Below are positions 2,932 through 21,343 of a DNA stretch of 30,739 bases, in pieces. The stretch lies in IMG/VR virus record IMGVR_UViG_3300025137_000170, positions 1 to 30,739 of that record. The stretch is one strand, 5' to 3'. Source of the DNA: a virus. The notes under the pieces were generated by a model. It was given only the letters and a program-made list of their open reading frames with translations. It searched no databases and had not been told where the DNA came from. Made by a program: the position numbers and the translations under genes. The first letter of the stretch is position 1; every line of letters begins with the position of its first letter.

Positions 2932-4197
2932 ATGGAAGAGCCAAAGTTTAGCAAGTTTCTTGAAGAAGAAATAAAAAGGAAGAAGATATTAAAGTTACCT
3001 CCTTTGCACGAGAATCAACAAACTGTTTCAGATTCTGAAGCTCGATGGAAAATTCTTTGTGCAGGTAGGCGTTTTGGGAAGACAAGGCTCGGGGTGCAGC
3101 TGTGTATAGAAACAGCAATGAAGGGAAAACGAGCCTGGTGGGTGGCACCTACTTTTTCTATTGCTCGTGTTGGATGGCGAGACATAATGTCAGCAGGATA
3201 TGACCTTGCTGATTCTATGGGTGTTGATGTCAAAATGGGAGACATGACAGTCACATTTCCTAATGGTGGATTTATTGCTGTCAAATCTGCTGATAACCCT
3301 CAGAGATTAAGAGGTGAAGGTTTAGATTTTTTAGTTATGGATGAAGCTGCCTTTATAAAAGAAGAAACATGGACAGAAGTACTTCGTCCTACTCTTACAG
3401 AAAGAAAAGGATCTGGGTTATTTATTTCAACTCCCCGTGGCATGAACAATTGGTTTTATCGTTTATGGCAAGATGCAGACGAAAGAGATGATTGGGATAG
3501 ATTTAGATATTCAACAGTTGATAATCCCGAAATTGACCCTAACGAATTAGAATCTGCAAAGCAAGATTTAGGTTCACTTATCTTTGCTCAAGAATATGAA
3601 GCAGAATTTGTGAACGAAGGCACACAAATGTTTAAAGGGGATTGGTTTAACTACTATCAACCTGCTGTTCGTGGAGCAAAAATTGATGATTTTACATATG
3701 AATTCGATAAAATGCCGAGATATGCCACTGTTGACCTTGCAACATCAACCAAACAAACAGCTGACTACACAGTTATGACAGCTTTTGCTCACGACCCAAG
3801 TGAAAACAAATTATTTGTTACAGATATGCTTAGAAAAAGAATGGAAGCTCCAGATATAATTCCTTCTATGAAAAAATTTTACAAAAAAAACAATCTTGAT
3901 TGGATTGGTATAGAAAGAGCAGGTTTTCAATTATCAATAATTCAGTTTGCTAAAAGAGAAGGTCTGCAAGTTAGAGAATTAAAAGCTGATAAGGATAAAC
4001 GCTCCAGAGCTGTACCTTTGTCTGCTAAAATGGAAAGTGGTCAAGTGTTTTTTCCCGATGACCCTATGTGTGATTGGGTACATGAAGCTGAAAGAGAATT
4101 ATTAACTTTTCCTTTAGGAGCACATGACGACATAGTTGATACGCTAGCTTATGGAGTATTAAACTTAAATAAAAGAATTAATTGGAAAGCGTTTTAA
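2932..4197 (+). CDS. terL: Terminase large subunit
   Basis: The ATP-driven DNA packaging motor and nuclease that loads the genome through the portal. Visible motifs: Walker A AGRRFGKT (residues 44-51), Walker B LVMDE (134-138) with catalytic Glu138, coupling motif STPRG (166-170), and a C-terminal RNase H-like nuclease with acidic residues in VDLAT (Asp268), GIERA (Glu328) and HDDIVD (Asp399, Asp400, Asp403). At 421 residues it is complete and of usual length. The start at ATG 2932 has no ribosome-binding site but follows TATAAT by 6 nt. No small subunit is recognisable next to it. The stop codon abuts the ATG of the portal gene, so the pair is co-translated. Confidence 0.96.
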   Translation: MEEPKFSKFLEEEIKRKKILKLPPLHENQQTVSDSEARWKILCAGRRFGKTRLGVQLCIETAMKGKRAWWVAPTFSIARVGWRDIMSAGYDLADSMGVDVKMGDMTVTFPNGGFIAVKSADNPQRLRGEGLDFLVMDEAAFIKEETWTEVLRPTLTERKGSGLFISTPRGMNNWFYRLWQDADERDDWDRFRYSTVDNPEIDPNELESAKQDLGSLIFAQEYEAEFVNEGTQMFKGDWFNYYQPAVRGAKIDDFTYEFDKMPRYATVDLATSTKQTADYTVMTAFAHDPSENKLFVTDMLRKRMEAPDIIPSMKKFYKKNNLDWIGIERAGFQLSIIQFAKREGLQVRELKADKDKRSRAVPLSAKMESGQVFFPDDPMCDWVHEAERELLTFPLGAHDDIVDTLAYGVLNLNKRINWKAF

Positions 4198-6534
4198 ATG
4201 GCAGAAAATAAGTCAAGATACAGACGAGCTGTAGAATATCTACAAAGACCCGCTTCAAGGGAAATAGAAGGTAAAAAAAGTGTAACTTTTAATCAAACAA
4301 CAGGTCAAGATGGATCTGTAATGGGTTACAACACTGGTTCAGGATTTATTCCTGACAAAATGCTTAAAGAAATTGGAGACGGTACAGGAAACTCAGCAGT
4401 AGTATCTTGTCTTAATGTTTTAGCAACTTCATTTGCCGAACCAAAAATTAAAGTTTGTAAGTATGTTGATGGCGATGTAGAAACAGTACATAATCATCCT
4501 GTTGCTGAATTGTTATCGAGGCCTAATCCATACACATCAGGTTCTTTACTTGCTCATTATATTATTACAGCTTTAAATGCAGAAGGTGATGCTTACTTAT
4601 TTAAGAATAGGTCAGCTAGTGGTAGAGTCGTAGAACTTATTCCACTTATTCCTATGTATGTAAAGGCAAGAGGTAATGAAAAACAATTAATTACTCATTA
4701 CGAATACTATGTGAAAGACAGTAAAAAAATAGAAGGTAACGAATTTAGAGTTATACCTGCTACAGAAATAGTTCACATCAGACAAGGTATAGATCCTAAT
4801 AATCACAGAAAAGGTTTTGCACCACTAAAGGCTGTACTTAGAGAAATTTTAGGAGACGAAGCTGCAGGACAATACGCTGCTGCATTATTACACAATATGG
4901 CAGTTCCTGGAGTTATTCTTTCTCCTAAAGACGACAGTATGGGTGGCCCAAGTCAAGAAGAAGCTGAAGCAATTGCTCAGATTTATAAACAAAAGTTTGG
5001 CGGGGCTAATAGAGGAGCACCAATGATTCTTTCAGGTTCTATGGATGTGAAAGTTGTGTCTTGGTCTCCTGAACAAATGAACCTTAATCAACTTAGGAGA
5101 TTGCCGGAGGAAAGAGTTTCTGCTGTATTGGGTGTTCCTGCTATATTGGCAGGTTTGGGAGCAGGTCTTGAAGCTGCAACTTACAACAATACAAAAGAAT
5201 TAAGAGAATTTTTTACAGAGCAAAAGCTCATTCCTTTATGGCAGACAGTTGCTAACGAGATTACTCATCAATTATTATTGTCAGACTTTACAGCTGATAA
5301 GAATATGCACTGTAAATTTGATTTAGACGAAGTTAGAGCTTTAGATGTAGATAAAGGTGAACAATACAAGCGTATGCAAACAGGAGTTTCAGGTGGTTGG
5401 ATAACAGTAGGAGAAGCAAGAAAAGCTGTAGGCCTAGAAACAGGTCCTGAACATGATGTTTTCTTAAGACCACTTAACTTAGAACCCACTCCTCCCGAAG
5501 AGTATTCAGATTTCAGTACTGATGTTTCTCCTGAAATGCCCCAAGAAGAGGATGTAGAAGAATTAGAAAAGGTTGCTATGGATGAAGATGTATTTGATAA
5601 TCCAGGCGATGCCATGAACAGATCAACTCAATTATCTTGTGCTATTGGAGTACATACACATGAAGTAAATGGTGAAGCAGTATTTATGCCATGTAATTCA
5701 CATGAAGAATATGAAGAGGCTGTTAAAAAAAAAATTAAAGAAGATTTAGAAGAAAAAGTAAGTGCAACAGTTAAAAAAGCACTAAAGAAAAAAGTTGAAG
5801 ATTTTAATGCAAAAGACCCAAAGTACAGGGCAACTCTACGAATGTTGTCAGCAGTTTTTAGAAGAGGAGTCGGAGCGTACAACACAAACCCTGGTTCAGT
5901 TAGACCAAGTGTCACATCTTCAGATCAGTGGGCTTATGCTAGAGTTAATGCTTTCTTAAAAGGATTAAAAGGCAAATTCCCTAGTAAACCATTTGACCAA
6001 GATTTACTTCCTAGTGGACATCCTCTTAGTAGTAAAAAATCATCTAAAGCTAAATATGATGATATGAATTTTACAATTCCTTCAGGTGCAAAAAAAGAAG
6101 CAAGAAGAGGTTTGGATTGGGTAAAAGAACACGGTAGGGGTGGTACTTCTGTAGGTAGAAATTCAGCAAGATATATTCTTAACAACACAACTGCTGGAGC
6201 AGAAAAAGTTAGACACATTGCAAAATACTTTCCTAGACATGAAGTTGATAAACAAGCACAAGGTTGGAGACCAGGAGAAAAAGGTTATCCTTCAAACGGT
6301 AGAATTGCTTGGGCTTTATGGGGTGGAGAAGCAGGTAAATCGTGGTCTGCAAAATTAGTTAGAGGAATGAATTCTAGAGATGGAAAAAAAGAAACTCTAA
6401 CAACAGAATCATTTCAAGTTGAGGTGACAAGAGAAGGTAATATAAGACCTACACCAACTCGCCTTGATAGACAAAGTAACAAAAAAGAGGATACTTCCGT
6501 ACACAAAGAAGAAATAGAACATCTTGAAGATTAA
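4198..6534 (+). CDS. Portal protein (HK97 family) with a long C-terminal extension
   Basis: Forms the dodecameric ring at the capsid vertex through which DNA passes. Residues about 50-430 match HK97-type portals: an N-terminal 'AVVSCLNVLATSFAEPKIKV' helix, 'PYTSGSLLAHYIITALNAEG', 'EIVHIR', and the helix 'RRLPEERVSAVLGVPAILAGL'. Normal members end near 400-450 residues; this one has 778. The extra part has a His/Cys patch (CAIGVHTHEV, 481-490), a Lys/Glu helix (507-535), a segment around RGVGAYNTNPGSVRP (556-570) and WAYARVNAFL (578-587), and another around GRGGTSVGRNSARYI (646-660), KYFPRHEVDKQ (676-686) and SNGRIAWALWGGEAG (699-713). I recall similar segments in structural proteins of other marine phages, without a known function. 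The gene starts immediately after the terminase stop. Confidence 0.92.
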   Translation: MAENKSRYRRAVEYLQRPASREIEGKKSVTFNQTTGQDGSVMGYNTGSGFIPDKMLKEIGDGTGNSAVVSCLNVLATSFAEPKIKVCKYVDGDVETVHNHPVAELLSRPNPYTSGSLLAHYIITALNAEGDAYLFKNRSASGRVVELIPLIPMYVKARGNEKQLITHYEYYVKDSKKIEGNEFRVIPATEIVHIRQGIDPNNHRKGFAPLKAVLREILGDEAAGQYAAALLHNMAVPGVILSPKDDSMGGPSQEEAEAIAQIYKQKFGGANRGAPMILSGSMDVKVVSWSPEQMNLNQLRRLPEERVSAVLGVPAILAGLGAGLEAATYNNTKELREFFTEQKLIPLWQTVANEITHQLLLSDFTADKNMHCKFDLDEVRALDVDKGEQYKRMQTGVSGGWITVGEARKAVGLETGPEHDVFLRPLNLEPTPPEEYSDFSTDVSPEMPQEEDVEELEKVAMDEDVFDNPGDAMNRSTQLSCAIGVHTHEVNGEAVFMPCNSHEEYEEAVKKKIKEDLEEKVSATVKKALKKKVEDFNAKDPKYRATLRMLSAVFRRGVGAYNTNPGSVRPSVTSSDQWAYARVNAFLKGLKGKFPSKPFDQDLLPSGHPLSSKKSSKAKYDDMNFTIPSGAKKEARRGLDWVKEHGRGGTSVGRNSARYILNNTTAGAEKVRHIAKYFPRHEVDKQAQGWRPGEKGYPSNGRIAWALWGGEAGKSWSAKLVRGMNSRDGKKETLTTESFQVEVTREGNIRPTPTRLDRQSNKKEDTSVHKEEIEHLED

Positions 6535-6540
6535 GATGTT
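6518..6540 (+). other. AT-rich perfect hairpin across the portal stop codon
   Basis: AACATCTT (6518-6525) and AAGATGTT (6533-6540) form an 8-bp perfect inverted repeat with a 7-nt loop that includes the portal stop codon. AT-rich and lacking a T-tract, it is more likely an mRNA end or processing element than a strong terminator; it could arise by chance. Confidence 0.3.
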
Positions 6541-6565
6541 AAAATAAATAGTACAGACAACTAAC

Positions 6566-6595
6566 TTGATACGCAACGATACAGTGTATTAAGAT
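6566..6595 (+). promoter_or_regulatory. Probable promoter before the protease gene
   Basis: TTGATA (6566-6571), an 18-bp spacer and TAAGAT (6590-6595) resemble a sigma-70 promoter. The same -10 box, TAAGAT followed by T, occurs in the promoter at 13466-13493. Transcription would start near 6602, leaving a leader of about 20 nt that contains AAGGAAAAAGG before ATG 6625. Confidence 0.45.
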
Positions 6596-6624
6596 TAGTA
6601 AGAGGAATACAAGGAAAAAGGTGT

Positions 6625-7839
6625 ATGGACAATAAAGAAATTAAAAGCTTTGAACTTAATATCAAAGAAGAGGGTGATGAAAAAGGAAATGTTGAAGCTG
6701 TCTTTTCAGTTTTCGGCAATGTTGACAGCGACGGGGATGTAGTTGTTCCTGGGGCTGTAAAATCAGGTTTTAAAGATACACAAGTACCAATGGTGTTTGC
6801 TCATAAATGGGATCAGCCAATAGGTAAAGGTACAATAGTACAAGATAATGAAAAAGCTGTTTTCAAAGGTTCATTCTTTATGGAAACAGAAGCAGGAAAA
6901 GAAGCATACAACTTAGTAAAATCAATGGGAGACTTACAACAATGGTCTTTTGGTTTTAGGGTTGATGATTCAGAAGTTGCACCTTTTAAAAAATCAGACG
7001 AGCAAGGCGATGAATATGATGTTCGTTATCTAAAAGAATTAACAGTTTATGAAGTATCCCCTGTGCTAGTTGGTGCAAACCAAGAAACATATACACTAGC
7101 AATTAAATCAGGTGAAGATACTATTTATGAGAAAACTCAAGGAAAAAAATATGGTTCATGTAATCATGATGAAGATGGCTCTTGTTATAAAGAGAGTAAA
7201 AAAGAATTAAAATCAGATCCTAAAGATGAAGCATGCTGCCAAGGTGGCAACAAAGGGTCTGAAGAAGTTTCTGAAAAAACCGAATCCAGCGTGTCAGGAA
7301 GGCGTTTCTCGGAAGAAGTCAAAGATGTGCTTATCGCATTAGATGACTTAGTTGAAAGAGCGAAGGCTATAGGGTCTTTGCGTTCACAGGATGGTAGGAA
7401 ATTGTCGGAGAAAGCTACGGATGCTTTAAGAGCAGTTCAAGAAGACTTAAATGAGGCTTGGAACGAAATCGATGAAGTCATTGTCGAAGTCGGAACACTT
7501 GTTACTCAAATAGAAGAAGAAATTCCTGATACGGAAAAAACAGAAGAAGAAGTTGCTGAAACTGAAACAGTCGAAGAAGCTTCATCTGAGGAAATAGTAG
7601 AAGACAACCTTGTTGAGGAAACTCAAGGTGATACCGTTGTAGAAACTGAAGATACAGAAGAAGTCGTTGAAGTAGAAGTAGAAGAATCTGAAGTAGAAGA
7701 AGTTGAAGAAGTAGAAGTTTCTATTGAAGAAGAAGTTGTTGAAGACGAAGAAGATGATGAAATAGATGGAATTCTTCTCGAGGCTCAACATACAGTCACT
7801 GAATCTCTTATAGCTGAAACCGAATTAGACGAAATATAA
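6625..7839 (+). CDS. Prohead protease with acidic scaffold-like C-terminus
   Basis: Serine protease of the HK97 prohead type (peptidase family S78 fold), which trims the scaffold and capsid precursors during head maturation. Residues 1-162 carry the domain: 'FGNVDSDGDVVVPGA', catalytic His60 in FAHKWD, and catalytic Ser108 in QWSFGF; the third catalytic residue is probably an acidic one in the LTVYEVSPV region (139-147). Members are usually 180-250 residues; here 404. Residues 179-205 hold a Cys/His cluster (CNHDEDGSC, then CC). Residues 230-295 are predicted helical or coiled, and 297-381 are extremely Glu/Val-rich. This tail probably acts as an internal scaffold, being discarded on maturation (inference). 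Its own promoter seems to lie at 6566-6595. Confidence 0.9.
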   Translation: MDNKEIKSFELNIKEEGDEKGNVEAVFSVFGNVDSDGDVVVPGAVKSGFKDTQVPMVFAHKWDQPIGKGTIVQDNEKAVFKGSFFMETEAGKEAYNLVKSMGDLQQWSFGFRVDDSEVAPFKKSDEQGDEYDVRYLKELTVYEVSPVLVGANQETYTLAIKSGEDTIYEKTQGKKYGSCNHDEDGSCYKESKKELKSDPKDEACCQGGNKGSEEVSEKTESSVSGRRFSEEVKDVLIALDDLVERAKAIGSLRSQDGRKLSEKATDALRAVQEDLNEAWNEIDEVIVEVGTLVTQIEEEIPDTEKTEEEVAETETVEEASSEEIVEDNLVEETQGDTVVETEDTEEVVEVEVEESEVEEVEEVEVSIEEEVVEDEEDDEIDGILLEAQHTVTESLIAETELDEI

Positions 7840-7844
7840 GCTAC

Positions 7845-7865
7845 AGTTTAGAAAAATTCTAAACT
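7845..7865 (+). other. Perfect 9-bp hairpin between protease and capsid genes
   Basis: AGTTTAGAA (7845-7853), a loop of three A, and TTCTAAACT (7857-7865). No T-tract follows, so it is unlikely to end transcription fully. It may mark an mRNA 5' end just before the highly expressed capsid gene. Confidence 0.4.
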
Positions 7866-7885
7866 AGAAATAGGAGACAAATAAC

Positions 7886-9142
7886 ATGTCACAAGACATT
7901 AAAGATCTTCGTGAAAAGTTAGCGTCAAAAAGAGTTGAATTAAAAGAACTCTTTGAGTCAGTTGAAGACGGTAGATATACTGCTGACCAAAAGCAGGCTA
8001 TTGCTGACAGAAACACGGAACTCGCTGGATTAGTAGATGAAGTAAATTTAGCTTCAACTAAAAGTAAAAATGAAGCAGCTATCGAAGCTGATTCAAAACC
8101 AGCCGAAGCAACTTATAAATCGGAGAAAGTTCAACCAACATCAGTTGGAGAGCAATTTGTTAACACAGACGCTTATAAGAACTACAAAAATAATGGAGTA
8201 AAAGGTATTGATGCCAAAGTAGGCTTTAATCCAACAGAATTTAAAACTTCATTAACAACCACAGGTTATCCACCTGAGGTTTTGAGAGAGCCTGGAATAT
8301 TAGAGTCAGCTCTTAGAGATCCAAATGCAGTTATTGGGCTATTCGACCAAATCGAATCAACCCAAAACTCTTTTAGTTATCTTGAAGAGACTACATTCAC
8401 CAACAATGCAGCTGAAGCTGCTGAAGGTGCTGCTATAGGCGAAGCTGCTCTTGCATTTACAGAAAAGACAGAAGCAATCAGAAAAATGGGTGTATTTATA
8501 CCTGTTACAGATGAATTGCTTTCTGACGAAGCTGGAATTCAAGGTTATGTAAACTCAAGACTTCAAACCATGTTAAAGCTAAGATTAGACGGACAGTTAA
8601 TATCCGGTAACGGTACTGCCCCTAACTTAGAAGGTTTATTGGATGCAGGTAAGAGCTCAGTAGGTTCTTCAGACTTCAACAGTTACAACGGTAACTTGGG
8701 AAGAATTGGAGCAATCTATAATGCAATTACTGATATTCGTGTAAACTCCTTTACAGAACCTGATGCTATTGTTATGCACCCAAATGACTGGAATCAAATC
8801 GTGACTTCAGTTGGTGCTGACTTTGCAGGTACTTCTTCAGCAGGATATGCAGAAAAGAGTCCTCTTTTTGTTGCAGCCGGCGGAATGGGTGCTGGACCAT
8901 CAGCCCAAATTTGGGGTGTTAAAGTAGTTCCGACCACTGCTATACCAAACAACACAGTGTTAGTTGGTAGGTTCGGTGGCGGCGAATGTGCAAATGTTGT
9001 AATGAGACAAGGTATTGACCTTGCCATCACAGATAGCCATAGCGATTTCTTTGTTAAGAATCAATTAGCTATTAGAGCAACAATGCGTGTTGGTTTCCCT
9101 GTTTATAGACAAACAGGATTCCACAAGTTACTAAATATGTAA
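7886..9142 (+). CDS. Major capsid protein (HK97 fold)
   Basis: Forms the icosahedral shell. The start is supported by AGGAG at 7872-7876, 9 nt before ATG. Residues 1-70 form a charged coiled-coil (MSQDIKDLREKLASKRVELKE) like the delta/scaffold domain of HK97 gp5. The mature shell domain follows from about residue 100: 'VIGLFDQIESTQNSFSYLEE', 'IRKMGVFIPVTDELLSDEAG', 'QLISGNGTAPNLEGLLDAG', 'DAIVMHPNDWNQI', 'IWGVKVVPTTAIPNNTVLVG' and a terminal 'FFVKNQLAIRATMRVGFPVYR'. Length 418 fits a capsid precursor with its delta domain still attached, in keeping with a protease gene next door. A terminator hairpin follows the gene. Confidence 0.95.
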   Translation: MSQDIKDLREKLASKRVELKELFESVEDGRYTADQKQAIADRNTELAGLVDEVNLASTKSKNEAAIEADSKPAEATYKSEKVQPTSVGEQFVNTDAYKNYKNNGVKGIDAKVGFNPTEFKTSLTTTGYPPEVLREPGILESALRDPNAVIGLFDQIESTQNSFSYLEETTFTNNAAEAAEGAAIGEAALAFTEKTEAIRKMGVFIPVTDELLSDEAGIQGYVNSRLQTMLKLRLDGQLISGNGTAPNLEGLLDAGKSSVGSSDFNSYNGNLGRIGAIYNAITDIRVNSFTEPDAIVMHPNDWNQIVTSVGADFAGTSSAGYAEKSPLFVAAGGMGAGPSAQIWGVKVVPTTAIPNNTVLVGRFGGGECANVVMRQGIDLAITDSHSDFFVKNQLAIRATMRVGFPVYRQTGFHKLLNM

Positions 9143-10618: not shown

Positions 10619-10770
10619 TTTTCGTATTTTTCTAAAGATTCAAGTAATTTATCACATATAACATTTTCAGGTTCTGCAACCCAAAGTGGTTCATTTCTTT
10701 TTTGTTTCTCATAAGCTCTAACTTCTAGCCAATAAGAAAACCTATCTTTTAAATGTTTAATTATTTTCAT
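10615..10770 (-). CDS. Hypothetical small protein downstream of the methyltransferase
   Basis: Unknown protein of 51 residues if it starts at the ATG whose first base is 10770 (14-nt overlap with the end of the methyltransferase gene); an upstream in-frame ATG at 10797 would give 60. Neither has a clear ribosome-binding site, so coupling to the upstream gene is likely. Basic in the first half (KIIKHLKDRFSYWLEVRAYE), acidic at the end. It ends the minus-strand cassette, and its stop overlaps the stop of the FmdB-like gene on the other strand. Confidence 0.5.
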   Translation of the reverse strand: MKIIKHLKDRFSYWLEVRAYEKQKRNEPLWVAEPENVICDKLLESLEKYEN

Positions 10771-12496
10771 ATCTACTATCAAAAACAAGTGTTCCATACT
10801 TAAGAGAATTTGAAATACAAATTCCTACAAACTCTGCACAAGCAGGAACAACTGCGTTGCCTAATGCTTTTATTTTATTTACCCTGTCAGGTTCATCTTC
10901 TATTGTTCTAGGTACTGTTTCCCATGGTTCTATTACATAATCATCTTTATAAACATAAGGATTTTCTGCAAGATTACCTTTAGGATTTATTCCTTCTGCA
11001 ATTCTTTTTGTACTTGGTCTACTACTTGTTACTAGAGGTGTTTGCCAATTTTGTCTTTGCCATTCAAAACTTTCTACTGTTGTCATTTCTTTATCAAACT
11101 TTAATTTTCTTAAGCAAGGTTTTATAGCTTCCCAATCTTCTATGGTCGGATAAGAGAATCCACCTTTGTCATATCTAAACCAATGTTCGATAGTTGTCTT
11201 CTTAATATCTATATTTTCTGATAATACCTTAACTGATGTTTGAGACCTAAGATAATCTACAAATTGCTTTTGTGTTGGTAGGTAAGGTCTTTTTAATATT
11301 TCGTGGTCTTTATAAATTTCAAATAATTCAGGATTCTTATGTATCTCATCAATAGCAATCTGGTCTGCCAAAGTTATTTGCACAGGTTGACCCGAAGCTC
11401 TTTTTGTTTTTCCTTGAAGTAATTTAGTAGCATACTTTAAAGCATCCTCTCCTGCTTTACCATCCATAGTTGTAGGAGTTCTCCATTTTTGTGATAAATA
11501 AACTCTGTCTTGTAAGTTAAGACTATGAGAATCTGTACCGTCTTTTGTTAGTCTCCTACCTTTTTCATTAAGTTTCATATTTTTATGAAGAACTTCTTGT
11601 GTTGTAGGAGTAGGCCAATGTAAAACATCTGCATTGTATGTCCAATAATTAGGAAGACCTAATCTTCCTGCCAATCCGACGGGAACCCCATAAGTAGGGA
11701 CACCCACTTGCTGTTCAACCTTTTGCCAATAAGTTTTGGGTTCCTCTCCCCCATGTCCATTTCTAGAGTCGAACCGTGTTTCCCCGCCTTCACCGACGGT
11801 GCTTGTTTGTTCACTGGCTTGGATGCTTGACTTGCTCTTGGAGTTGACCAAAGTTTTGGATTCTCCCTCAAGTTGCCCGTACTTTTTCTTTTGCTCTTCT
11901 TGGATTTGTCCCCACGGTACAGAGCGTTCTCCAAAGCTTCCCCTGTTCTCGGTTTCAAGTGATCTAAAGTGTTCGGAGTTTCCCACGATGAATACTCTTT
12001 CTCTAAGGTGCGGGGCATTAACCGAGGCTGCTGATACAATTTGCCATTCAACACTATACCCGCTACTGGAAAGGAAAGAAATAACTCTTCCGACTGCTCC
12101 TCCTTTATTTCCTTCGTCGTCTTTGGCTGTGAGGAGTCCTCTGACATTTTCTGCAACAACCCATTTTGGTTTAAGAACGCTAATGGCTCTTTCGAATTGA
12201 TACCATAATATTCCTCGCTCATCTTCTTCACTCATTCCTTTCCTATTACCTGCATAACTAAATGACTGACAAGGGAATCCCCCTATCAACATGTCAACAG
12301 GTTCTAATTTACTGAAATCTACATTATTTATATCATCATTGATGACATTTGATTTCGGCCATTTCTTTTTTAAAACACTTGCACAATAAGGGTCAAACTC
12401 TACTTGCCAAATTGTTTCAGCATCAAAGTCTTTTAGTCCTCTTTCAATTCCTAAATCTAAACCACCGATACCAGAAAACAAACTACCTATCTTCAT
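10757..12496 (-). CDS. dcm: DNA cytosine-C5 methyltransferase
   Basis: Methylates cytosine at C5 in DNA, probably to protect phage DNA from host restriction. Motif I FSGIGGLDLG (7-16), motif IV GFPCQSF with catalytic Cys76, motif VI ENV (116-118), motif VIII HLRERVFIV (163-171), and motif X RVNKIKALGNAVVP (538-551) are all present, so it should be active. At 579 residues it is longer than typical (300-450). The extra, between VIII and X, holds three W-(P/R/Q)TP elements (294, 338, 484) and a helix-turn-helix-like segment around TTIEHWFRYDKGG (434-446), also seen in other phage methyltransferases. The start has TTAGGA 4 nt upstream and overlaps a small upstream gene. No partner restriction enzyme is visible. 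A second reading frame overlaps it at 11659-12231. Confidence 0.93.
   Translation of the reverse strand: MKIGSLFSGIGGLDLGIERGLKDFDAETIWQVEFDPYCASVLKKKWPKSNVINDDINNVDFSKLEPVDMLIGGFPCQSFSYAGNRKGMSEEDERGILWYQFERAISVLKPKWVVAENVRGLLTAKDDEGNKGGAVGRVISFLSSSGYSVEWQIVSAASVNAPHLRERVFIVGNSEHFRSLETENRGSFGERSVPWGQIQEEQKKKYGQLEGESKTLVNSKSKSSIQASEQTSTVGEGGETRFDSRNGHGGEEPKTYWQKVEQQVGVPTYGVPVGLAGRLGLPNYWTYNADVLHWPTPTTQEVLHKNMKLNEKGRRLTKDGTDSHSLNLQDRVYLSQKWRTPTTMDGKAGEDALKYATKLLQGKTKRASGQPVQITLADQIAIDEIHKNPELFEIYKDHEILKRPYLPTQKQFVDYLRSQTSVKVLSENIDIKKTTIEHWFRYDKGGFSYPTIEDWEAIKPCLRKLKFDKEMTTVESFEWQRQNWQTPLVTSSRPSTKRIAEGINPKGNLAENPYVYKDDYVIEPWETVPRTIEDEPDRVNKIKALGNAVVPACAEFVGICISNSLKYGTLVFDSRYENN
11659..12231 (-). 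CDS. Candidate overprinted gene inside dcm: W-TP / LMGFPxxW family protein
   Basis: A 190-codon frame on the same strand as the methyltransferase but shifted by one base. The protein looks real: 'LFLSFPVAGIVLNGKLYQQP', 'PRTLEKEYSSWETPN', 'LWSTPRASQ' and a final 'LNSKWVSLLMGFPSDW'. That order (SFPxSG..NGKLY, W-TP repeats, LNPxWVxWLMGFPxxW) is the hallmark of a protein family often found beside phage cytosine methyltransferases; I rely on memory for this. The first 50 residues match nothing I know. Possible starts: GTG 12231, with AAAGGA 4 nt upstream, or ATG 12222. Base composition is unusual: by hand count 11701-11940 is about 49% GC, against about 27% for 11221-11340. The methyltransferase frame is also open and looks functional here. 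Alternative: a decayed or chance frame. Confidence 0.5.
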   Translation of the reverse strand: MKKMSEEYYGINSKEPLAFLNQNGLLQKMSEDSSQPKTTKEIKEEQSEELFLSFPVAGIVLNGKLYQQPRLMPRTLEKEYSSWETPNTLDHLKPRTGEALENALYRGDKSKKSKRKSTGNLRENPKLWSTPRASQASKPVNKQAPSVKAGKHGSTLEMDMGERNPKLIGKRLNSKWVSLLMGFPSDWQED

Positions 12497-12621: not shown

Positions 12622-13164
12622 TTATTCTTGACTTCGCCACATACGCTCCCATTTTTCTGCATCGCCCCAACACCATTTGCTTGAGTTCCAATCGTTCCAT
12701 CTTGTATTTGAATATGTATCTTCAGCCAAAAGTGATGCTGCATATATATTCCAATAAGCAGAATATTGGACAGGTCTAAAATCAAAACCAGTATTTGTTT
12801 TAGAGGTCTTATTAGACTCATAAGGCATACCAAATCTAGTAATTACCCAAGAGTCCCATTCAGGTATTCCGTGTAATTCAACCATCCATTTCCAGGTATT
12901 TGGAATAAATTGCATGACACCCGAGTCATTATCTTCTAATCTAAAAGCATTTGATTTGCCACGACTTTCACACCAACCAATTCTAAATGCCGTATATAGA
13001 TTTTCAGGTTCAAAGTGCATAATGTAGTATTGAGTGTGATCAGACATATTTTTTGGAAAACTTTTCATACACTGCTTTACTTCATAGATGTCATCTACAG
13101 TAGGTTGATTGTTAATTATGGGTTGTTGAAAACTTGCTAAGAGTAGCAGACATTCAGCTATCAT
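12622..13164 (-). CDS. Lytic transglycosylase / lysozyme-like protein (SLT fold)
   Basis: Peptidoglycan-cleaving enzyme, likely the endolysin or an entry/exit lysin. Core: 'IGWCESRGKSNAF' with catalytic Glu66, 'DNDSGVMQFIPNTW' (78-91), and 'YSAYWNIYAASLLAED' (134-149), which is the usual order of soluble lytic transglycosylases (Glu, then GxMQ-PxTW, then N..AA..L). The N-terminus (MIAECLLLLASFQQP) is hydrophobic and could be a signal or anchor sequence, short of basic residues. The end is very Trp-rich (RWNDWNSSKWCWGDAEKWERMW), perhaps for wall binding. The start is clear: on the minus strand AAAGGAG (plus positions 13172-13178) stands 7 nt before ATG 13164. It is read from the promoter at 13451-13479. 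Confidence 0.85.
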   Translation of the reverse strand: MIAECLLLLASFQQPIINNQPTVDDIYEVKQCMKSFPKNMSDHTQYYIMHFEPENLYTAFRIGWCESRGKSNAFRLEDNDSGVMQFIPNTWKWMVELHGIPEWDSWVITRFGMPYESNKTSKTNTGFDFRPVQYSAYWNIYAASLLAEDTYSNTRWNDWNSSKWCWGDAEKWERMWRSQE

Positions 13165-13500: not shown

Positions 13501-14460
13501 ATGTTAATAGATGGGAGAAACATGGACAAATATGAAGATAGAATAAACGACAATGAATTAGCTGATGAAAGGCTAGTTTCTGATATGGATAATGTTAAAG
13601 TAGAGACACCTTACATACTAAACAATATGGAGAATTTAAACGAATTACCTCAATTTTCAGGACCTAAAAGATATACCAAAGAAAAGCTTACTAGAGAACA
13701 AATTGTAGAAAAAATAACATCAGATCCAATTAAAACAAATCTGTTTTGGGCTGATGAATGGGGTTGCTCTAGAGAAAGAGTAAGACAACTTAGAGAACAA
13801 TTTGGATTAGCAGGTGCTTCAGACTTTAACTTAGAAATATTTAATTTAGCTCTAGAAAAAATTTCAAAAGCTCGAGGCTTTATAACAGCTCATACTTTTA
13901 AAGATATTCCTAATTTTAGTGTAAGAAAATTAAATACTTGGATACAAGATAAACCACATCTAAAACAACAAGTAGAATTGATAAGACAAGAAGCGTATAA
14001 CCTAACTCATTATCCTTCTCATAAACTATGTCCATTCTGTGATAAAACACTACCTATAGACAATTTTTATGTTTCAAAAGTAGGTAGAGATAAAAGAATG
14101 AACAAATGTAATAATTGTAATGTTAAAATTGTAAAAGCTTATTACGATAAAAGAGATGTTCCTAATCCAACAGTAACAGAAAAAACTTGTGCAAGTATAA
14201 GGTCATTAGGACCACTTCCTGCCTCATTTTTTCATAGGTCTAGAAAAGCATCTTCAGGATTACAATATAGTTCAAAACGATATATGGAATGTTATTCAAG
14301 AAACAAAATTAAATATAATAAAATTATGAAAATTGAAGATAATAACATTAGACAACAAGAACTACAGTTGTTTGGAGATTGGCAACAAAGAACTAAGAAC
14401 GAAGCTAAAGAGCTTCTTATAAAAGATTTGGAAGAATACAACCTGCTAAACTTAGAGTAA
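13501..14460 (+). CDS. DNA-binding protein: sigma-4-like HTH plus zinc ribbon
   Basis: Probable transcription factor. Residues 87-100 (WGCSRERVRQLREQ) strongly resemble the recognition helix-turn-helix of sigma-70 region 4 (G-x-S/T-R-E-R-I/V-R-Q), preceded by a helix containing 'LTREQIVEKI'. Residues 177-206 form a zinc ribbon (CPFC, then CNNC) of the type that in phage HNH/endonuclease VII-related proteins has 'P..xFY.sk.g......C..C'. A degenerate second copy may lie at 230-266 (C230 and C264 only). No sigma region 2 or nuclease motif is seen. Two starts: ATG 13501, 7 nt after a -10 box, or ATG 13522, with GGGAGA just upstream (giving 312 residues). With its own promoter and terminator it is an independent unit of the 'moron' type, and it might control late promoters or the divergent cassette (inference). 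Confidence 0.75.
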   Translation: MLIDGRNMDKYEDRINDNELADERLVSDMDNVKVETPYILNNMENLNELPQFSGPKRYTKEKLTREQIVEKITSDPIKTNLFWADEWGCSRERVRQLREQFGLAGASDFNLEIFNLALEKISKARGFITAHTFKDIPNFSVRKLNTWIQDKPHLKQQVELIRQEAYNLTHYPSHKLCPFCDKTLPIDNFYVSKVGRDKRMNKCNNCNVKIVKAYYDKRDVPNPTVTEKTCASIRSLGPLPASFFHRSRKASSGLQYSSKRYMECYSRNKIKYNKIMKIEDNNIRQQELQLFGDWQQRTKNEAKELLIKDLEEYNLLNLE

Positions 14461-18034: not shown

Positions 18035-21000
18035 ATGGACTTTAAGATAACGGGTGCGATGCGTCTGATGACAGACGCTGCTTCACAGCAACTTGCTTCT
18101 GTTGGTGCTAAAGCAACTCAAACACTTTCTAAAGTTGGTAGTGCTGCTTCAAATGCTATTAGTGCAGCTACCGTAGGTTTATTCGCAGGTTTATCTTTTG
18201 CAATGGCTGCAGGTGCAGTCTCCGCAGTAAAATTTCAAAACGAATTTGCAAATGTTAAGAAAACTATGTCAGATATTGACGACCCCGAAGTTTTCAAGAA
18301 AATACAAGAAGATTTAGTAGGTTTAGCAACTCAAATACCAATAACAGCATCAGAACTAGCTGGAATTGCATCTGTTGGTGGTCAGTTGGGTATTGGTGCT
18401 GATGATATTGCAGAATTTACAGAGGTTGTAGCAAAATTAGGTGGAGCTACAAACATGAGTTCCGAACAAGCTGCTACTTCTATGGCTAGGTTCTTAAATG
18501 TTACAAATGAAAACATAAGTTCAATTGGTAAATTTTCATCTGTTCTTGTTGAACTAGGTAACAATGTCGCTGCTCAAGAGGGTGAGATTATACTCTTAGC
18601 CCAGAACTTTGGTGCTTCAGGTAATCTTGCAGGTTTAGCAACAGAAGAAATATTAGCTTTCTCAGCAGCGATGAAAGAAACAGGTCAGCAGTCTCAGGCT
18701 GGTGCAACAGCTCTTTCTAAATTATTCCTAAACATAACTGACGCAGCAAAATTAGGTGGCAGTGAAATGGCTACCTTCGCACAAGTTGCAGGTAAAGATG
18801 TAGATGAATTTAGAAGATTAATAGAAACAGATGTTGGAACAGCTGTACAACAATTATTAGCTGGACTAAATGAAATGGGAGAAGAAGGTAGATCAACTAC
18901 CGCAGTTTTACAAGAAATGGGCTTGGGTACTGTTCGTGTAAGAAAAGCAATTTTATCTTTAGCTAATAACGAAGAAGGTTTAACCGAAGCAATGAGCAGA
19001 GCTAAAGCTGAGGTTATTAGCCAAAATGCTTTGAATGAAGAGGCAGCTGAAAAATTCGGTACAGTTGCTATGCAAATGCAACAGTTTAAATCAACTATGG
19101 GTGCAGCTTCTATTACTTTAGGTCAAATCTTTTTACCTGTTATGGAAAAATTAGCAGGGGTGCTTGTTAGGGTAGCTGATGCTTTCTTTGGACTTGCAGA
19201 ATTCTTTAGAGATAATCCCCCTGCTCTTTTTGCTCTTTATGCTGCTTCTTTTGGTGCTATGGTTTTAAGTTTAGTAAAACTAGGAAAAACTGTTAGTGGT
19301 CTTCTTGGAGGATTTGGGAAATTTCTTAAAATTTCATCAGGTGTAGGTCTAGCTATTGCAGGTCTAGTGGCAGTTCTTGGATTAGCAGCTAGTGCTTATG
19401 GAAAATATAAAAGAGAACTAGAAGAAGTAAGTGATGTTCAAAAAGGTGTCTCTAAAACAATTGAAAGTATGTCAATAAGTCTTAGAGATGGTTTTGAAGC
19501 AGAGCCTGTGAACGCTGCTACTTGGGAAGAGTTTGTTACTAACTTACCAGAAGCTGTAAGAGCTTCTGTTATCAAAGGTGTTGAACAAGGAACTATGGGC
19601 AAAGAATTGTTTGATTCTTTAATATCTAATGCAGAGACATTAGGTCCTGAATTTGGTGAAGCTATTAGAGATGCCTTAGACATCGGTGAAGGATTTTTTG
19701 GAGACTTTCTAGGTGAAGATAGTGAAACAGTCAAAAAACTTATTGAAATGATAAAAAGTGCGGGTCTTGGTGACGAGCTAGCAGGAACTGTTGAGTTGCT
19801 TGAAGAATACGATAAATTAATTCTTCAAGGGAACAGAGCAGATGAAGATAGATTGAAGATAGTAGAAGATTTACTTACCGTACAAATGTCTCTTGTTGAT
19901 GGAGTAAAAATTGAAGCAGATTTAAGAGATAAAGAAATAACAGATGCCTTACATAAACATTTTGGTTCAATGATTTTGCAAGACAGAAGACTCGCAAGCA
20001 TGATGAAGACTGAAGCAGGGAGATTAAAGCTTGCTAAAGATTTATCAAAAGAAAGCAAAATATTTCGTGATTTACTTGATGACACTCAAGAGATAACTGA
20101 AGATATGTCTGATGATACAGAACAAGTTGAATCTAACTTAGATTCTTTGTTAAGAATTACTAGAGACTTTAGAACTAAAATTGATAATTTATTTAACCCA
20201 ATAAAAGAACAATTTGAAATGCAAAAAAATGAAAGAGATTTAGCAAAAGCTCACAAAGAACATGCCGATTTACATCAAGAACAACTTGATTTAACAAATG
20301 AAGATGTTTCATTACAACAAGATTTAGTTGATTTAGGCTCACAAGAAATAACTAACGCAGAAGAAAAACTTGAGATGCAAGAGTTGGAAAATGAAGCATT
20401 AGAAATTGAAGAACGCCTTAGAACAGGAATGGCGTTGACTGCTAACGAACAACTTCGAAAAGAAAAACTTAAGAAGGATTTGGTTAGAGTTAATGCAGCT
20501 GCTGCTCACGGCTCTTTAGAGTTTGCTGAATTAGAAGCAAAAGCTATACAAGAACAAATTGATGAAATAGATGGTAAATCCGTAACTCAAGCACAAGCAG
20601 ATGAACTAAGAGCACAAGCTCTTGATATTTCAGGAGAAGCACAGATAAGAAGACAGGAAGAAATTGCCGAAATAGAAGAAAGAAGAATAGACATAGGCGA
20701 AAGACTTGCAGAGATTCCTGATGATATTTTAGATGCACACCAAGACATTCACTCATTACAAAGAGACTTAGTTGATAACACACTAGACATGATTGAAGCA
20801 CAAGCTAATTTTAATACATTAAAAGAATCTGAACTAAAAATGACTGGTGAACTTCTTGGTTTAGATAATCAAAGAATTGACGGATTAATGACCTTGATGA
20901 ATCATGCAAGAGTTGAATCAGGACCTTTAGGACAAGGCATGGTTGATACAGCACTCGCAAATCTTCCTACATTGCAAGCTTTACTTGGTTACGATGCGAC

Positions 21001-21343
21001 AAATTCCGTAACAGGTGGACAGATGGATGATTTATTTAGTGACTTTAAAACTTCTGGAGGTTATGCAAATATGAAACCTACTTATAGACATATGGGAGGA
21101 AGTTTTAAGCCTGGTCAAAATTATGTCGTTGGTGAGTATGGTCCTGAAATGATGAAAGCATTTCCAGGTGGTGGTGGACAAATTAGTCCTATGGGAGACT
21201 CAAGAGGTGACACAACTAATTATGTTACACTTAATGTAACAGGCTTACCATCAGATCCAATAGCAGCAAGAAGAACAGCTCAAACAATTCAAAAAGAATT
21301 AAATAAATTAAAAAGTGATGGAAGAAGTGGAGTAGTAAGATGA
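18035..21343 (+). CDS. Tail tape measure protein
   Basis: Sets tail length and is ejected during infection. 1102 residues. Residues 60-350 contain the canonical tape-measure domain ('FQNEFANVKKTMSD', 'LAGIASVGGQLGIGADDIAEF', 'EQAATSMARFLNV', 'QAGATALSKLFLNI'). Hydrophobic stretches at about 47-67 and 395-460 ('PALFALYAASFGAMVLSLV', 'GVGLAIAGLVAVLGLAASAYG') are the membrane segments usual in these proteins. Residues 700-960 are coiled-coil, rich in Glu, Leu and Gln. AGGAG a few bases before ATG 18035 supports the start. At about 1.5 angstrom per residue (known rule) the tail would be near 165 nm. The gene ends in ATGA with the next one. Confidence 0.95.
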   Translation: MDFKITGAMRLMTDAASQQLASVGAKATQTLSKVGSAASNAISAATVGLFAGLSFAMAAGAVSAVKFQNEFANVKKTMSDIDDPEVFKKIQEDLVGLATQIPITASELAGIASVGGQLGIGADDIAEFTEVVAKLGGATNMSSEQAATSMARFLNVTNENISSIGKFSSVLVELGNNVAAQEGEIILLAQNFGASGNLAGLATEEILAFSAAMKETGQQSQAGATALSKLFLNITDAAKLGGSEMATFAQVAGKDVDEFRRLIETDVGTAVQQLLAGLNEMGEEGRSTTAVLQEMGLGTVRVRKAILSLANNEEGLTEAMSRAKAEVISQNALNEEAAEKFGTVAMQMQQFKSTMGAASITLGQIFLPVMEKLAGVLVRVADAFFGLAEFFRDNPPALFALYAASFGAMVLSLVKLGKTVSGLLGGFGKFLKISSGVGLAIAGLVAVLGLAASAYGKYKRELEEVSDVQKGVSKTIESMSISLRDGFEAEPVNAATWEEFVTNLPEAVRASVIKGVEQGTMGKELFDSLISNAETLGPEFGEAIRDALDIGEGFFGDFLGEDSETVKKLIEMIKSAGLGDELAGTVELLEEYDKLILQGNRADEDRLKIVEDLLTVQMSLVDGVKIEADLRDKEITDALHKHFGSMILQDRRLASMMKTEAGRLKLAKDLSKESKIFRDLLDDTQEITEDMSDDTEQVESNLDSLLRITRDFRTKIDNLFNPIKEQFEMQKNERDLAKAHKEHADLHQEQLDLTNEDVSLQQDLVDLGSQEITNAEEKLEMQELENEALEIEERLRTGMALTANEQLRKEKLKKDLVRVNAAAAHGSLEFAELEAKAIQEQIDEIDGKSVTQAQADELRAQALDISGEAQIRRQEEIAEIEERRIDIGERLAEIPDDILDAHQDIHSLQRDLVDNTLDMIEAQANFNTLKESELKMTGELLGLDNQRIDGLMTLMNHARVESGPLGQGMVDTALANLPTLQALLGYDATNSVTGGQMDDLFSDFKTSGGYANMKPTYRHMGGSFKPGQNYVVGEYGPEMMKAFPGGGGQISPMGDSRGDTTNYVTLNVTGLPSDPIAARRTAQTIQKELNKLKSDGRSGVVR

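Follow-up and report, generated by a model that had tools for sequence, protein, structure and literature searches.

M.AquI (CYCGRG) is naturally split between motifs VIII and IX, with motifs IX and X both located in its small subunit. In M.EcoHK31I (YGGCCR), which also consists of two polypeptides, Lee, Kam & Shaw are said to have reported in 1995 that the beta subunit is likewise encoded in an alternative frame within alpha. The large subunit of M.EcoHK31I carries motifs I-VIII and X, and the small subunit carries motif IX (PMC3404938). The out-of-frame HNH endonuclease of ShiLan is a further example of an ORF concealed within a phage DNA methylase gene in a different frame (PMC11855218). 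Public annotation of loci like the one described here mostly takes one frame or the other; however, depositors annotated both in the Paenibacillus phages Shelly (“g55 internal gene”) and Leyra (gp61/gp62), which have the same nested arrangement, albeit labeled as an internal gene or hypothetical protein, or as a second methyltransferase. The searched passages of the Paenibacillus phage paper (PMC6070908) contain no discussion of this arrangement.

The stretch of DNA that we analyzed, referred to below as the window, comprises 30,739 nucleotides of viral DNA (IMG/VR record: IMGVR_UViG_3300025137_000170, positions 1 to 30,739). Genes within 2932-9142 and 18035-21343 on the plus strand encode a large terminase, portal, maturation protease, major head protein, and tape measure protein; based on these head, packaging, and tape measure genes, the window belongs to a tailed phage. 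On the minus strand, which also carries all features of the two frames described below, positions 10757-12496 encode a C5-cytosine DNA methyltransferase of 579 aa (hereafter, alpha). In a profile search, alpha scored 177.6 bits against PF00145 (cut-off 22); it also matches phrog_363, and its match to M.HhaI covers residues 5-171 only. Based on the sequence and an alignment to M.HhaI, motif I (LFSGIGG) lies at 12461-12481, motif IV (GGFPCQ, with the catalytic Cys) at 12266-12283, motif VI (ENV) at 12143-12151, and motif VIII (HLRERVFIV) at 11984-12010, whereas motif X (ALGNAVVP, 10844-10867) was placed from the sequence and an alignment of relatives.

From the sequence alone, a preliminary description had proposed that the methyltransferase gene contains a second functional gene in a different frame, and the ORF it pointed to is present at 11659-12231, one base out of phase with alpha and overlapping motifs VI and VIII. 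This nested ORF (hereafter, beta) encodes 190 aa in the +1 frame and begins with GTG. As the description had noted, it has a start context of its own, which reads AGGAAAGGA-ATGA-GTG; the Shine-Dalgarno-like AGGAAAGGA (12236-12244) coincides with Arg-Lys-Gly codons of alpha, and the relatives that we compared have a similar purine-rich stretch at this place. Based on the sequence and the beta alignment, the encoded protein contains an NGKLYQQP element (12025-12048) and two W-TP elements, WETP (11974-11985; T85 is near-invariant in beta alignment A2) and WSTP (11839-11850), followed by motif IX (RLNSKWVSLLMGFPSDW, 11671-11721). Profile searches with the nested protein yielded a match to PHROG_1008 (42.9 bits, E = 7.9e-11) and no match in Pfam. 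Relatives of the nested protein also match PHROG_1008 (“DNA methyltransferase,” category other); however, the entry for this family gives no hint that members are encoded inside another methyltransferase gene.

Compared by motif layout, the window shares the division of motifs in M.EcoHK31I, and its small subunit is encoded in an alternative frame within the large subunit’s gene, as is reportedly the case for M.EcoHK31I. The two-subunit kind is already known from that enzyme. However, M.EcoHK31I is a restriction-modification enzyme with a predicted recognition domain in its large subunit, whereas the window contains a phage gene, beta has W-TP elements in addition to motif IX, and alpha contains further W-TP modules. 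The window differs from M.AquI in that motif X lies in alpha; an AquI-like split with overlapping ends is instead found in the actinophage-type genes gp6/gp5 of mycobacteriophage Catdawg (L248) and in L249 and L253. In Catdawg, the second-frame ORF continues in frame into motif X (IGNGV). Whereas the hidden ORF of ShiLan is a mobile HNH insertion, the nested ORF in the window encodes no HNH endonuclease based on the Pfam search, and its second frame encodes part of the methyltransferase itself, namely motif IX.

From sequence comparison, we read the locus with considerable confidence as encoding a two-subunit C5-cytosine DNA methyltransferase whose subunits would be translated from overlapping frames of one stretch of DNA. 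Alpha would bind AdoMet and perform catalysis through motifs I-VIII and X. Beta would start in the +1 frame at the internal GTG (12231) behind AAAGGA, would presumably be made as a free protein, and would supply the recognition-type W-TP segment and motif IX. Where it overlaps beta, alpha would be read as a hydrophilic linker with no requirement other than an open frame, and it would then continue into motif X. The two proteins would assemble into one enzyme, with beta needed for activity, and this enzyme may modify the phage’s own DNA against host restriction.

Selection was assessed in the window family (12 distinct sequences), with dN/dS computed for each frame separately. Over beta codons 61-190, dN/dS in the nested frame is 0.084, and the alpha frame over the same codons has a dS of 0.038 and a dN of 0.14; outside the overlap, the dS of alpha is 0.925 upstream and 0.911 downstream, with dN/dS of 0.15 and 0.20, respectively. 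Beta codons 1-60 span alpha motifs VI and VIII. Here, alpha has a dS of 0.17 and dN/dS of 0.30, and the beta frame has dN/dS of 1.14, with dN and dS both low; the first part of beta could therefore be little more than a leader. The pattern recurs in two further groups: the dS of alpha is 0.09-0.11 across the W-TP/IX part, 0.17-0.22 across the part with motifs VI-VIII, and 0.79-1.21 outside, and the dN/dS of beta is 0.13-0.16 and 0.41-0.50 in the first two of these parts, respectively. Position-wise divergence counts agree with these estimates and follow the nested frame for 130 codons in the window and for ~300 codons in loci L110-L127. In enterobacterial relatives, the N-terminal part of beta follows the codon pattern of the methyltransferase. 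For lambdoid-type phages, the beta frame had at first seemed to be tracked over the initial 20 beta codons; this signal was an artefact of gapped columns, and it was dropped after a gap-free count.

Because selection acts in each frame, both frames are coding, and both proteins are real. Strong dual constraint is confined to the initial ~60 codons of the nested ORF; beyond them, the nested frame is conserved, and the alpha frame is a variable hydrophilic linker. The suggestion in the preliminary description that conserved segments of the two proteins are written in the same bases thus holds for those ~60 codons but not for the remainder of the overlap.

The passage of constraint from alpha to the nested frame right after motif VIII could also reflect a programmed +1 frameshift past motif VIII, which would fuse alpha motifs I-VIII to the W-TP/motif IX segment as a second isoform, without beta as a free protein. 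Fusions of this order do exist in a single frame (L254-L257 and L278). However, the product of such a frameshift would lack motif X, and the open stretch of the nested ORF extends far upstream of the switch and has its own start codon and Shine-Dalgarno-like sequence; in lambdoid-type phages, it is open from near the start codon of alpha. The dS of alpha is also lowered 4-7 fold in the first part of the overlap, and the precedent M.EcoHK31I has a separate small subunit (PMC3404938). We consider a frameshift improbable and favor translation of beta as a subunit of its own.

The C-terminus of the nested protein (LNSKWVSLLMGFPSDW) matches motif IX of C5-methyltransferases, which reads LTPRECARLMGF in Escherichia coli Dcm; the segment also resembles RRLTPRECARLMGF, found in Dcm shortly before motif X (GNSVV). 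Three of its residues (M181, P184, and W187) are invariant among 69 sequences. When the sequence of the alpha frame was read, no motif IX of the LMGFP type was found; it is present in the nested frame instead, and alpha is not a complete monomeric enzyme by its motifs. Single-frame relatives (L254-L257 and L278) contain motifs I-VIII, W-TP elements, LMGYP or MMGWP, and GNGV or GNAV in this order, such that their W-TP/LMGFP segment sits between motifs VIII and X. The beta profile aligns to this VIII-X segment (hhalign probability 97.7%, E = 1.4e-12), and motif IX of beta is collinear with that of the single-frame relatives, which bears out the shared history suggested in the preliminary description. 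A profile comparison between alignments A2 and A3, which share sequences and are not independent, was left unused.

Because motif IX is in beta, is absent from alpha, and is collinear with the single-frame relatives, beta most likely represents the half of the same enzyme that carries recognition and motif IX. The nested protein had been assigned to a phage family that usually occurs beside cytosine methyltransferases; the family match stands, but the notion of a separate neighbor most likely does not; no stand-alone copy of the nested protein away from a methyltransferase was found among ~245 loci in phage, genome, and plasmid searches. Beta might still be a real but separate protein, such as a regulator or adaptor of the methyltransferase, with alpha active alone and using its own W-TP modules for recognition. 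Consistent with this, alpha in the window has W-TP elements of its own downstream, and the N-terminal part of beta is absent from the single-frame relatives. However, alpha would then have to function without motif IX, whereas the C-terminus of beta fits motif IX both by sequence and by its place before motif X in the single-frame relatives, and we regard a separate function as quite improbable.

Structure prediction was also applied to the recognition half of the proposed two-subunit enzyme and to a single-frame relative. AlphaFold2 modeled beta alone poorly, with a pLDDT of 55 and a pTM of 0.20, and no claim about its fold is based on this model; a PDB sequence search with the beta profile returned no matching chain. 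The AlphaFold2 model of L278 aligned end to end with M.HhaI over 208 residues (VIA-align Z 23.4, rmsd 2.6); because the W-TP region of this model has a pLDDT below 50, it says little about the fold of the W-TP segment. The 31 nested representatives (<70% identity) fall, in a tree built from the catalytic part, into one set of lineages with the single-frame and AquI-like forms. Only two changes are needed to account for the nested state in this tree, the backbone of which has weak support.

In the +1 frame of alpha, stop codons occur at codons 90 and 281 (stop-to-stop numbering) with none between them, compared with 38 stops outside this stretch, and the third same-strand frame is full of stops over the gene. 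Both frames are open in all 17 close IMG/VR relatives, none of which has a stop in the nested ORF. The rise in GC content noted in the preliminary description was recovered: GC is 0.466 in the nested ORF and 0.485 in its last 130 codons, versus 0.340 upstream and 0.324 downstream in the same gene, and AT-rich relatives have a similar step. When the synonymous codons of alpha were shuffled, a +1 stretch of 190 codons arose in 0 of 2000 shuffles (mean longest stretch, 60 codons); when the nested ORF was shuffled by codon instead, the methyltransferase frame stayed open in 0 of 2000 shuffles, with 8.3 stops expected. Among 38 representatives, the alpha shuffle gave P<0.05 in 37, and the nested-ORF shuffle gave 0 of 2000 in 35. 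In a small control, the longest stretches in the alternative frames over the last 200 codons of E. coli dcm were 62 and 45 codons, and no single-frame relative exceeded 134 codons in the +1 frame.

One module has been found in both frames. Residues ~338-507 of alpha in the window (10976-11485), which contain W-TP and helix-turn-helix-like elements, align by BLASTP to the beta protein of L020 with 53% identity over 172 aa (E = 1.4e-54) and to the nested protein of L113 with 56% identity. In L020, the alpha frame at this module is a low-complexity linker. One phage thus reads this W-TP/HTH module in frame 0 and another reads it in frame +1, which provides independent evidence that the nested frame is translated. 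That only the methyltransferase is translated, with a linker poor in Leu, Ile, Val, and Met leaving few +1 stops, is extremely improbable: the alpha-shuffle test is weak in high-GC relatives (P of 0.01-0.05; 0.052 in L165) and no stand-alone copy was found in the loci searched, but divergence and dN/dS track the nested frame, a protein module occurs in the nested frame of L020 and L113 and in the alpha frame of the window, and the nested segment matches single-frame relatives.

The translated nested subunit proposed here is widely distributed. In nearly all of ~245 related loci, the nested ORF lies in +1 phase inside the methyltransferase; across the searches of viral contigs and public phage records, the best nested ORF was in this phase at 188 of 189 loci. 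At the exception (L178:1808-2673), the alpha frame contains motif IX, the beta frame contains the W-TP elements, and the third frame contains motif X. This pattern looks like the result of a one-base indel, by mutation or assembly error; IMG/VR contigs may carry indels. Searches of bacterial genomes and plasmids added 22 loci from genome contigs, and PHROG_1008 occurs in 23 of the 295 genomes in the enterobacterial family to which L190 belongs. In these searches, the nested phase is likewise +1 inside a methyltransferase wherever both ORFs are detectable, except for an extra short fragment (L235/L247). The loci come from phages, prophages, or plasmids of Pseudomonadota, Bacillota, Bacteroidota, Cyanobacteria, and Actinomycetota. 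The preliminary description had named homologues in the same nested position, together with reduced synonymous change in both frames, as support for a second gene, and both were found; its central claim is upheld by selection in both frames, the codon shuffles, the ~245 loci in the same phase, and the module present in both frames.

The extent of the overlap varies. In the lambdoid-type phages S9-5, ABMM1, phPA-G, and Vibrio 1.291.O, the two ORFs overlap near end to end, with the nested ATG a few bases past the methyltransferase start. L020 and its relatives have a nested ORF of ~375 aa in a methyltransferase of 530-580 aa, such that ~1.1 kb is dual-coding. The window family has some of its W-TP region in the tail of alpha, outside the overlap. 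Other layouts were also observed. At L133:1716-3272, alpha is split into proteins of 186 aa (motifs I-VIII) and 175 aa (motif X) around an intact beta of 436 aa, representing either a three-piece methyltransferase or a damaged one. At L258 and L260:1662-2429, motifs I and IV are joined directly to W-TP and motif IX in a single ORF, possibly through an in-frame fusion or an indel.

Several ORFs lie over or near the methyltransferase gene in the window. An antisense ORF of 154 aa (11736-12200, plus strand) covers the nested gene; it is open in 5 of 12 distinct family members (the window, L004, L005, L007, and L008) and closed in the rest, and we rejected it as a gene. Because it is open in so few members, it probably arose as a side effect of the dual coding and the elevated GC content. 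A gene at 12622-13164, which lies immediately upstream of the methyltransferase on the same strand, encodes a protein of 180 aa with segments (ESRG and GVMQFIPNTW) that resemble lytic transglycosylases; a search of PHROGs identified no match for it. On the plus strand, a gene at 13501-14460 encodes a protein of 319 aa with weak PHROGs matches to Lar-like restriction alleviation proteins (37.9 bits) and endonuclease VII, and based on these matches it may be a further anti-restriction gene near the methyltransferase.

In the open-licence literature, we found no report of the phage-wide spread, depth, or module frame-swapping of nested methyltransferases. To our knowledge, there are few documented cases in DNA phages of two proteins that share 0.5-1.1 kb of the same strand and are both demonstrably under selection. 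The evidence for and against a broader proposal seems to us evenly balanced: these loci may belong to an old family of heterodimeric methyltransferases, dual-coded and spread across phages, whose recognition half occupies the +1 frame of the catalytic half and whose W-TP modules move between overlapped beta frames and free alpha frames, with the frame deciding which subunit carries a module and how freely it can evolve. If this is true, the hydrophilic linkers of many phage C5-methyltransferases regarded as “complete” would be the read-through of a hidden subunit. Since annotation mostly keeps one frame, many database entries for phage “cytosine methyltransferases” probably describe only half of an enzyme; we would expect no success from expressing alpha by itself, and a methylation specificity predicted from it could not be relied on. 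These enzymes, whose gene tree contains single-frame, AquI-like, and nested forms, offer a natural system for studying the evolution of recognition domains under overprinting.
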